Shown one piece after another: positions 13,011-36,974 of a stretch of 42,396 nt of DNA. Both the position numbers and the translations under genes were made by a program. Positions within the stretch are counted from its first letter, which is position 1; each line of letters begins with the position of its first letter. Source of the DNA: Candidatus Saccharimonadota bacterium (GTDB taxonomy: Bacteria; Patescibacteriota; Saccharimonadia; Saccharimonadales; Saccharimonadaceae); contig JAQGHA010000011.1 of assembly GCA_028289065.1 (NCBI GenBank), positions 1-42,396 on the forward strand, written 5' to 3'. The notes beneath the pieces are model-generated. The model searched no databases. It had not been told where the DNA came from and saw only the letters and a program-made list of their open reading frames with translations.

Positions 13011-13121
13011 GAAACAAGAACCCACCCTTCATTTTACGGCACTGTCCTGAGCTCAATGTATGTTTGAATAACATACATTTCGTGCGGAGGTGCCTTAAAA
13101 ACGAGGGTGGGTTTCTGTTTC
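13011..13121. repeat. Structured ~110 bp element, copy 1
   Basis: A 111 bp imperfect inverted repeat. The outer arms (13011-13030 and 13103-13121) read GAAACAAGAACCCACCCTTC and its near reverse complement. Inside are a second closing helix, GGCAC with GTGCC, and a central perfect hairpin, AATGTATGTT with AACATACATT. The core differs from copy 2 (15365-15476) at only about four positions over ~75 nt, while the outer arms are unrelated in sequence but still pair. It lies 38 nt downstream of the lysS stop. No U-tract typical of a terminator follows on either strand, although both flanks are T-rich. Confidence 0.85.
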
Positions 13122-13159
13122 TCTACGGAGTAATTGTTTAAGCGTAGCTCGTAGTAGCA

Positions 13160-14740
13160 CTACTCCTCTTCGGTTTGTTCGGACGGTTCTTCTTCGAATT
13201 TTACTTGTGGGTAGAGGGCTTTGGTAACTTCGTCGTATTCTTGGCGGAGTTGTGGGAATGGTACCCCTTCCCTAGCGGTGACGCCTTCAAAAATCCAGAA
13301 TACGCGTTCGCTGAAGCCCCAACCACAGGCTGGTGGCATGCCGTATTCCAGCATTTCAACGTAATCAATGTCCAGCATCATAGCTTCGTCGTCACCATCG
13401 TCGCGCATTTGTTGTTGTTCAACAAAGCGGTTCAATTGGTCGATTGGGTCGTTTAGCTCTGAGAAGCCGTTACCTAGTTCGGAACCAGCAATAACCGGTT
13501 GGAAGCGTTCAACAACCCGGGGGTCATTAGGGTCGGCTTTAGATAGCGGCGAAATAAAGGCTGGCGTGTTAATCAGCCAAACCGGGCCAGCAACATCCTT
13601 ACGAATGTTTTTCCAAAGCTTATCAATACCACGGGCCCGGTTTTCGGTTTGCTCAACTTCTAATTTGTTTTCAACCAAGGCTTTTTTCACCTCTTCTAGT
13701 GAACTTTCGTAGACGTCAATGTTATAACGTTCGCGAATAACGGTCGCATAATCCCAAATTTCCCACTCACCGGCCATGTTGATATGTTTGCCATTAAGGT
13801 CAAATTCTAAAGTACCGAAAGTTGCTTGAAGAACATTTTTATACATTTCTTCCATAAACTTCATACCATCTTGCCAGTTGGCGTAGGCCCAGTACCATTC
13901 CATAGCAATGTGCTCCGGAAGGTGTTCGTCGGAATAATTTTCGTTGCGGAATCGGGGCCCAATGTCGTAGACCTTTTCGAAGCCAGCCCCAATTAAGCGC
14001 TTGAGTGGTAATTCATGGCTAATACGAAGGTAAAAATCCTGGTTTAAGGCATCCATATGGGTAACAAATGGGTTAGCATCGGCACCACCGGTGGTGTGCT
14101 CTAATACCGGTACGTTCACTTCAATAAAATCATTACTATTTAAGAAATCACGAGTCGCCTGCCAAAACTTTGATCGTCGGACGAAACGCTCACGAACATC
14201 ATCGTTAACGTTCATATCAACGTAACGGCGGCGCATACGCTCTTCTTTATTAGTAAAGCCTTCTTGCTTGCTTGGCATTGGGCGAAGCGCCTTACTTAAA
14301 AGTCGCATTTCGTGTACAAACACCGATACTTCACCGGTTTGGCTTTTACCAACGATACCGCCAGCTTCAATAAAGTCACCAATATCAAGTAGTGGCAAAT
14401 CCTCAAGCCCAAGTAGGCCTGGGTTGTAGCTTTTTGATGACTCGGTTGGTGGTTCATCGCCAATATATAGTTCATTGGTAACATTTTCAGCATTTAAATA
14501 CAGCTGAACCTCACCCGAGACATCTTTGATGACAATAAAGGCAATTTTTCCAAATTTACGAATCGCCGTAATTCGGCCGGCTACGAATACATTTTTGCCT
14601 TCAACCGTTTCGAAATTATTCTTAACATCGGCCGTATAGTGCGTCCGGTTGGTAGCTGAAGGGTACGGGTTAATCCCCTTCTCTTTTAGCGCCGCAAGCT
14701 TGCGCAGGCGCTCATCACGAAAATCTTTTAAAGTCGACAT
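13160..14740 (-). CDS. lysS: Lysyl-tRNA synthetase, class II
   Basis: LysRS charges tRNA-Lys. The 526-residue protein has an N-terminal OB-fold anticodon-binding domain (about 55-160, VFVAGRITAIRKFGKIAFIVI) and a class II catalytic core with motif 2 (RFRNENYSDEHLPEH) and motif 3 (GMPPACGWGFSERVF). The motif 3 glycines and arginine are kept although the sequence is divergent, and the C-terminus is an acidic tail. The ATG lies 9 nt after a TGG-TATACT extended -10 and has no Shine-Dalgarno. A structured repeat element lies just 3' of the gene. Confidence 0.97.
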   Translation of the reverse strand: MSTLKDFRDERLRKLAALKEKGINPYPSATNRTHYTADVKNNFETVEGKNVFVAGRITAIRKFGKIAFIVIKDVSGEVQLYLNAENVTNELYIGDEPPTESSKSYNPGLLGLEDLPLLDIGDFIEAGGIVGKSQTGEVSVFVHEMRLLSKALRPMPSKQEGFTNKEERMRRRYVDMNVNDDVRERFVRRSKFWQATRDFLNSNDFIEVNVPVLEHTTGGADANPFVTHMDALNQDFYLRISHELPLKRLIGAGFEKVYDIGPRFRNENYSDEHLPEHIAMEWYWAYANWQDGMKFMEEMYKNVLQATFGTLEFDLNGKHINMAGEWEIWDYATVIRERYNIDVYESSLEEVKKALVENKLEVEQTENRARGIDKLWKNIRKDVAGPVWLINTPAFISPLSKADPNDPRVVERFQPVIAGSELGNGFSELNDPIDQLNRFVEQQQMRDDGDDEAMMLDIDYVEMLEYGMPPACGWGFSERVFWIFEGVTAREGVPFPQLRQEYDEVTKALYPQVKFEEEPSEQTEEE

Positions 14741-14749
14741 ATTAAATAA

Positions 14750-14758
14750 AGTATACCA
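14750..14758 (-). promoter_or_regulatory. Extended -10 promoter of lysS
   Basis: Minus strand TGG then TATACT (14758-14750), 9 nt from the lysS ATG. The transcript is predicted to be leaderless. Confidence 0.6.
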
Positions 14759-14787
14759 TAGAAATTACAGAGGAGAGAGTAACATTC

Positions 14788-14813
14788 GGGGGTCAGGCTT
14801 TCGCCCGACCCCC
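14788..14813. terminator. GC-rich hairpin 3' of the 148-residue orphan gene
   Basis: GGGGGTC and GACCCCC arms with an inner GGC/GCC pair; on the minus strand the loop is GAAA, a GNRA tetraloop. It lies 12 nt beyond the stop of the orphan gene. There is no U-tract, so it may protect or end the transcript rather than act as a standard intrinsic terminator. Its GC content contrasts with the flanking host DNA. Confidence 0.55.
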
Positions 14814-14825
14814 TTCGAAGTGTCG

Positions 14826-15245
14826 CTATGCGAACGTCCAGCTCAGCGCCGACCTATTGTAGATCAGCTGTGCCGGCACGCGCCTGAAGCCAAGGTAGTC
14901 ATTGAATTCGACGACGAAGAGCTCCATCGGCGTGCCCACGTGCGTGTGAAACAGCACGCTTCGATATTCCTCTTCGGTGATTGAAGCATCGCGGTCGGTG
15001 AAATCCGACCACGGGTCGACTTCGCTTCCGGGAGCTTCATACCGGAAACCAGTCAGCACTTCTGCCAAACCTTCCGGTGTGTACGGTTCGCCCGTCGTCT
15101 GCTCGAAATATTCCACTAGGTACCGGAACCGGCTTTCGATGAAAGGCTTGTGCAGCCGTTGCAGCTGTACGAACATCCGGTCCAACCGCTGCTTGAACGC
15201 CTGTTGCTTACGCTGCGTTGCCGATTGCAATTCGCTATCAGTCAT
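14826..15245 (-). CDS. Hypothetical protein, solitary GC-rich gene
   Basis: I do not recognise this protein. From the ATG at 15245 (strong Shine-Dalgarno AGAGGAG 6-7 nt upstream) it has 139 residues: an N-terminal basic, Gln-rich helix (about 5-45), then a mixed domain with many aromatic and acidic residues (YFEQTTGEPYTPEGL, DPWSDFTD, FVVEFNDYLGFRRVP). There is no signal peptide or membrane segment. An in-frame ATG nine codons upstream lacks a Shine-Dalgarno. One sampled line of the gene is about 58% GC against about 45% in a sampled housekeeping line. It has its own promoter, leader hairpin and 3' hairpin, so it looks like an acquired single-gene unit. Confidence 0.7.
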   Translation of the reverse strand: MTDSELQSATQRKQQAFKQRLDRMFVQLQRLHKPFIESRFRYLVEYFEQTTGEPYTPEGLAEVLTGFRYEAPGSEVDPWSDFTDRDASITEEEYRSVLFHTHVGTPMELFVVEFNDYLGFRRVPAQLIYNRSALSWTFA

Positions 15246-15280
15246 AACAAACTCCTCTGTAAAGAACTCCAAAACTCAAC

Positions 15281-15303
15281 ACCGCAAAACGGCGTTTCGC
15301 AGT
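15281..15303 (-). other. Leader hairpin of the 148-residue orphan gene
   Basis: On the minus strand ACTGCGAAAC pairs with GTTTTGCGGT over 10 bp (two G-U pairs) with a GCC loop. It lies in the ~70 nt leader between the promoter and the ATG at 15245. It could affect translation or mRNA stability; it is not followed by a clean U-tract. Confidence 0.5.
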
Positions 15304-15320
15304 GGAATATGGATTTATCA

Positions 15321-15348
15321 GTTATACCATTTAATCTGTTGCACTCAA
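15321..15348 (-). promoter_or_regulatory. Promoter of the 148-residue orphan gene
   Basis: Minus strand -35 TTGAGT (15348-15343), a 16 nt spacer that ends in the extended TGG, and -10 TATAAC (15326-15321). The predicted leader is about 70 nt. Confidence 0.55.
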
Positions 15349-15364
15349 ACCATAACCTCTGTAG

Positions 15365-15476
15365 AGAATTCAAAAAGTACCCTACATTTTACGGCACAGT
15401 CCTGACTCAATGTATGTTTGTATAACATACATTTCGTGCGGAGGTGCCTTAAAAATGAGGGTACTTTTTGAATTCT
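15365..15476. repeat. Structured ~110 bp element, copy 2
   Basis: A 112 bp inverted repeat with perfect 19 bp outer arms (AGAATTCAAAAAGTACCCT at 15365-15383 and its complement at 15458-15476). Inside, GGCAC/GTGCC closes a conserved region around the hairpin AATGTATGTT/AACATACATT. The core is almost identical to copy 1 and in the same orientation. It starts 16 nt downstream of the greA stop. The outer arms share no sequence with those of copy 1 beyond the innermost few bases, yet both sets pair, which indicates selection on structure. Confidence 0.87.
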
Positions 15477-15492
15477 AGCGAAAGGTTAAAGT

Positions 15493-36864: not shown

Positions 36865-36974
36865 AAAACTTCTTGTACTTATTTCTAGACGGCTTCGCGC
36901 CGGGTTCAATTGGGGCCTTTGCGCCCAATTTCACTCAGGCTGCAGAGGTCGTAGAAAGAAGTACAAGAAGTTTT
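36865..36974. repeat. Structured ~110 bp element, divergent third copy (proposed)
   Basis: A 110 bp inverted repeat with 23 bp outer arms (36865-36887 and 36952-36974, one mismatch). Inside are a GAC/GTC closing helix, a CGGC/GCCG hairpin and a central hairpin AATTGGG/CCCAATT. In the same orientation as copies 1 and 2 it shares ACGGC, then YTC followed by AAT-hairpin-ATT-TC, then GAGGT, in the same order and similar spacing. It starts 16 nt downstream of the CAP-gene stop, exactly as copy 2 does after greA. The family link is inferred; the inverted repeat itself is plain. Confidence 0.7.

Follow-up and report, generated by a model that had tools for sequence, protein, structure and literature searches.

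MITEs carry terminal inverted repeats that are common to their copies, and leave direct duplications of the target. REPs measure 20-40 bp and are characterized by a conserved foot tag (GTAG/CGTC), by a stem sequence shared between copies and by RAYT transposases (PMC3733652). Long, perfect inverted repeats that are unique in sequence occur as coding palindromes in nematomorph mitochondria, where they have been attributed to template switching (PMC6649704).

The elements described here were found in a window of 42,396 nucleotides from the 0.93 Mb genome of a Candidatus Saccharimonadota bacterium and in relatives of that genome. Like REPs and BIMEs, they are small, intergenic, imperfect palindromes, scattered, often paired in inverted orientation and conserved as hairpins (PMC3733652). 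However, at ~100-190 bp they are larger than REPs, their stems are unique to the site, they mostly occur without a Y1 transposase and they have no fixed foot tag: within 12-nt windows at the feet, GTAG occurred at 7/36 and CGTC at 1/36, with about 2.5 of each expected, and at no fixed position. With MITEs and other bacterial palindromic repeats they share being short, non-coding, dispersed and apparently moved in trans, but at each site they have different terminal arms, and no direct duplication accompanies them. They recall attC sites in folding into an asymmetric hairpin that has a variable apical part and bases left unpaired on one side, and single-strand recognition by a tyrosine recombinase, as in attC, is plausible for them too (PMC3053210); unlike in attC, however, the conserved part is internal rather than at the ends, there are no cassettes, and the attC boxes RYYYAAC...GTTRRRY were found in none of 36 elements. 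While the nematomorph palindromes are not described as lying round one conserved unit, each palindrome here surrounds a conserved folded core. Of the definitions that were tested, those of REP, MITE, attC, terminator and Rfam families, the element fits none.

Results

Palindromes in the window

A sequence-only reading of the window had described two structured copies of ~110 bp, and both are present where it placed them, on the minus strand: copy 1 (13011-13121) lies between the stop of lysS and the promoter of a PadR-family gene, copy 2 (15365-15476) just after greA, with weaker complementarity extending out to 15353-15488. What had been taken for a core of ~75 nt with about four differences is a shared unit of 85 nt, at 13024-13108 and 15379-15462 on the minus strand, in which the four substitutions are accompanied by one 1-nt indel and which ends abruptly at ACCCT/AGGGT. 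Read on the minus strand, the direction of the lysS and greA transcripts, the unit is ACCCTCRTTTTTAAGGCACCTCCGCACGA-(AATGTATGTT-loop-AACATACATT)-GAG(C)TCAGGACNGTGCCGTAAAATGWAGGGT. Its closing helix GGCAC/GTGCC (13038-13042 with 13090-13094 and 15393-15397 with 15444-15448) and its central, apical hairpin AATGTATGTT/AACATACATT (13055-13064 with 13070-13079 and 15409-15418 with 15424-15433) had been recognized correctly.

Outside the shared unit the two copies are unrelated in sequence, yet each pairs with itself. The left arm of copy 1, GAAACAAGAACCCACCC (13011-13027, the inner 4 nt of which, ACCC, are part of the shared unit), pairs with the right arm GGGTGGGTTTCTGTTTC (13105-13121) at 15/17 positions, and the left arm of copy 2, AGAATTCAAAAAGTACCCT (15365-15383), pairs with the greA-proximal arm AGGGTACTTTTTGAATTCT (15458-15476) at 19/19. 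The description as covarying outer stems calls for correction: the arms are different sequences round one shared unit and do not go back to a homologous stem altered on both sides. Folded on the minus strand, the two copies have MFE z-scores of -9.5 and -11.5, with none of 200 shuffles as stable, and in 441 kb of the window genome about one inverted repeat with a score of at least 14 is expected by chance after shuffling.

While both copies are real, they are not the only ones in the window. At 36865-36974, between the gene for ribosomal protein L21 and a CAP-family gene, lies a third one, with perfect outer arms of 16 bp; its core ACGGCTTCGC..GGCTGCAGA is of type C, a related subtype. An inverted-repeat scan revealed further copies elsewhere in the window genome (L138, L216).

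Between copy 2 and lysS the window also contains a GC-rich ORF of 148 aa (14826-15272) without a Pfam match. It is bracketed by the inverted sequences TTACAGAGGAG (14765-14775) and CTCCTCTGTAA (15252-15262) and is missing between greA and lysS in a sister species, G003; this region looks like a separate recent insert.

Relatives and conserved structure

A covariance model built from the two window copies detected true relatives within the family, in two genera besides the window's own. With a second model added, the count rose to nine genomes, all of one class and the window genome among them, with 1-3 copies each; relatives are thus present in eight other genomes of the class. Homologues were detected in 3/394 genomes searched in the family and 8/393 searched in the class, so that the presence of type A is very uneven, with ~98% of class genomes lacking it at the sensitivity of the model. 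In a phylum-wide sample the model search gave a single weak match, again in the window's family, and none outside it; consequently no autonomous parent was found. Exact core patterns of 14-16 nt gave only chance matches in viral and species-genome collections, blastn found no match in phages, and among 16 genomes of the same genus blastn returned just the two known copies. The statement that the element matches no known RNA family was borne out by Rfam, where the window had no match at the gathering threshold and the elements had only chance-level matches at a relaxed one. As no description of such elements for Saccharibacteria or CPR was found in the open-access literature, they apparently form a family that is recurrent within one class and undescribed in the open-access literature searched.

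Across the nine genomes the core has one compact, asymmetric architecture, GGCAC-C-TCC-GCA ... A-GGA-C-N-GTGCC with a variable apical hairpin, and single copies folded independently assume the same architecture. When 13 copies of type A are aligned to the model, the proportion of paired cells is 93.6%, as against 73.1% in shuffles and 36-47% with the partners slid, and two-sided changes occur in 19/29 pairs (84 cells versus 24 in shuffles). These counts lean towards the model, to which the alignment was fitted, and non-homologous arms are mixed in the outermost helix. The inner helix, GGCAC-C-TCC with GGA-NN-GTGCC, is almost invariant together with its flanking unpaired bases, whereas the apical hairpin has changed on both sides in 8/10 pairs with 95% of cells paired. 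A second subtype, GGCACCTCGGAAGCG..TGACCCGCAAGTGCC, is found in G458, G486 and G503. The covariation in this homologous apical hairpin is real and strong. For the outer arms, selection on folding, which the sequence-only reading had deduced from their paired change, does not follow, since these are site-specific inverted copies which a mutational process could keep identical.

The sister species and a wider superfamily

In 396 kb of G003 the inverted-repeat scan detected 17 elements, and blastn with the core extended this to 18 intact copies and one fragment. Cores of types C and E have the same architecture as type A, and when 400 kb of G003 were searched with a type A/B model, two type C copies ranked first (E 2e-4 and 0.02), which makes common descent of type A/B and type C likely, as judged from this similarity.

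Recent copies in G003 are 94-99% alike over 82-106 nt. Even so, every intact copy that was found there by core similarity alone has its own arms, including those with cores 94-99% alike. One recent pair has 105 nt in common, inner arm sequence included, but differs in the outer arms, as if each move had added a new layer of arm. Copies are intergenic and in non-orthologous places: sites that carry an element in G003 lack one in the window genome and vice versa, the relatives being too diverged for a base-by-base alignment of the empty intergenic sites. At one gene end both species carry an element (L165 6387-6510 in G003, L138 11678-11803 in the window genome). There, each arm follows the end of its own species' gene, and the cores are oppositely oriented, which suggests either that an element inverted by way of its arms or that insertion occurred more than once.

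Two further kinds of palindrome were encountered among the relatives. A larger one, type D (187 nt with arms of 22-24 bp; L131 653-839; L115, L111), follows greA in G012, G006 and G001. It is orthologous in G006 and G012, where five mirrored changes in 23 bp imply that complementarity between the arms is preserved through time, whether by selection or by templated correction. Downstream of each of two tRNA genes in G042 (Gly and Phe; L155 2007-2113 and 3027-3137) come a hairpin and 17-20 nt from within the tRNA gene repeated in inverted orientation, a mirror copy at a terminator-like hairpin that resembles those of the elements.

Origin of the arms

The arms in G003 span 13-37 bp, are mostly perfect and differ at every site; apart from one 14-mer, their sequences are absent elsewhere. 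At the palindrome edges of 17 G003 copies the longest direct repeat was 1 nt, so no direct target-site duplication was seen. Several of these arms overlap the ends of coding sequences by 4-16 nt, and the one at position 231438 takes in the last codons and the stop of parB. Since the C-terminus of this parB is homologous to that of parB in the window, where no element is present, this arm is native host sequence and the other arm an inverted copy. At the best documented sites in general, one arm is native to the host and the other its inverted copy. Ready-made palindromes at the target were considered as a source and rejected, because the arms reach 24-37 bp while the longest palindrome outside elements in the G003 sample has 19 bp. 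Beyond the perfect arms the flanks are still more complementary than mismatched controls (5.2 versus 1.0). A shared composition of promoters and stop codons may explain part of this, and the signal suits a gradual extension by template switching no less than one round of snap-back.

Genomic context

Both window copies lie in sense orientation downstream of housekeeping genes and lack a U-tract, as had been noted. Over the whole set, copies occur between convergent, codirectional and divergent genes and in both orientations relative to transcription. Those of type A are found inside operons (rplJ|rplL, dnaN|recF, atpD|atpC), behind genes and where two genes converge, and several G003 copies sit between divergent genes, 11-17 nt from the start codons, single placements being provisional as the G003 gene calls are longest-ORF calls. 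Neither a U-tract nor a terminator-like match was found at the copies. Selection on one folded strand would be expected to bias wobble pairs towards that strand; no such bias was found, as G.T and A.C mismatches in the arms showed no strand preference under symmetric scoring (32:25 and 16:15). The varied gene contexts, the two orientations, the unbiased mismatches and the missing terminator signature favour a DNA element over a 3'-UTR RNA or a terminator. Of the three options that the sequence-only reading had offered, the hairpin-recognized DNA element fits best, and the 3'-UTR RNA and the non-standard terminator fit poorly. The elements may have an additional effect as RNA on host mRNAs.

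Close pairs of elements were always divergent, (-)(+), in three of three cases: L065 1382-1608 (G037), L081 1350-1584 (G458) and L067 1253-1608 (G089).

Candidate enzymes

Three families were considered as potential movers. Neither the window genome nor G003 has the Y1 transposase (PF01797), which is missing from 7/9 type A-positive genomes when the window genome is counted and from 6/8 other carriers; the carriers G503 and G517 do have it. Reverse transcriptase (RVT_1, PF00078) is absent from the window genome, G037, G458, G486, G500 and G503, and present in G003, G089, G445 and G517. Both were rejected as movers because they are missing from most carriers. A Xer-type tyrosine recombinase (PF00589) was found in all four genomes checked (G000, G037, G089, G003). 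In the window genome and in G037 its gene has no element directly beside it, whereas in the other two it adjoins one, of type A in G089 and of type C in G003. At these two loci, in two genera and with different subtypes, the Xer stop codon lies ~7-11 nt from the element (L087 4997-6343 in G089, L164 13687-14755 in G003). As the recombinase occurs in every genome tested and beside elements in two genera, it is a candidate only; adjacency in two of four is too little to claim a link, and its presence is necessary, not sufficient. We regard it as a lead.

Discussion

What kind of entity keeps its core and has a different stem at each site? The explanation we incline to, with somewhat better than even confidence, is that the elements form a family of mobile but non-autonomous DNA palindromes, with a folded core that would be recognized and arms that would arise through copying by snap-back or template switching. 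An enzyme acting in trans would recognize the folded core as single-stranded or cruciform DNA, and the unit would land at or near gene ends. The end of the strand would then fold back on the unit's own stem and copy 13-37 nt of the flank, resealing would yield flank, unit and inverted flank, and later template switching could keep or extend the arms. Alternatively, template switching during replication round an inserted strong hairpin might make or maintain the same product; the reasoning is similar to that for the perfect palindromes in nematomorph mitochondria (PMC6649704). The data fit copying at the time of insertion and later extension of the arms alike and do not separate the two. Type A, with its small number of copies (1-3 per genome), might equally consist of old residents; stems that follow the base composition of the host suggest a long residence.

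More far-reaching is the tentative reading that the elements represent mobile DNA of a class in which the act of insertion makes an inverted copy of the host flank, each insertion building its own perfect stem. Here, a folded single-stranded unit would be joined to a 3' end, snap back and prime synthesis over 13-37 nt of host DNA. This is possible, although we would not bet on it; still, we know of no transposition mechanism that leaves an inverted copy of the target without a direct duplication, and the chance of a new insertion mechanism is substantial.

Several explanations without mobility at their centre have to be weighed against these. A DNA or cruciform site maintained by the host for chromosome organization, recombination or replication, with its arms kept by quasi-palindrome correction, would account for a core conserved over an order while the stems drift, for palindromic similarity beyond the perfect arms, for the orthologous type D element after greA with its mirrored changes, and for the Xer gene adjoining elements in two genera; we nevertheless judge it unlikely, given the very uneven presence of type A in the class, the non-orthologous positions and the nearly identical recent copies at new sites. 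Still less is to be said for a structured RNA or 3'-UTR element selected on the transcript, such as an mRNA-stabilizing hairpin. The strong covariation of the apical hairpin and the sense orientation of both window copies behind housekeeping genes speak for it, but orientation relative to transcription is mixed overall, copies between divergent genes and so close to start codons would hardly be transcribed, the wobble pairs of the arms show no strand bias and Rfam gives no match, which leaves this quite improbable.

Ordinary intrinsic or bidirectional terminators might be suspected where copies lie after genes or between convergent ones, but with copies within operons and between divergent genes, with neither a U-tract nor a terminator-like match, and with long conserved internal loops that are no feature of terminators, we give this very little credence. 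Just as improbable are REP-like or IS200/IS605 relatives mobilized by a resident Y1 (RAYT) transposase: the divergent close pairs in G089, G037 and G458 do resemble REP doublets, but the transposase is missing from the window genome, the sister species and most type A carriers, there is no conserved foot tag, and neither the size nor the unique arms fit.

For the annotation of these genomes, the cores and covariance models are a starting point in intergenic regions, and the arms carry a warning, as perfect covariation in an outer stem need not signal selection on RNA structure. Should the arms prove to be inverted copies of host sequence that are made at insertion, they would constitute a new product of transposition, one that to our knowledge has not been described for REPs, MITEs, IS elements or integrons. 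It would have come to light in very small bacterial genomes, in which mobile elements have been little studied, and, if true, would make the spread of conserved hairpins by fold-back synthesis testable.
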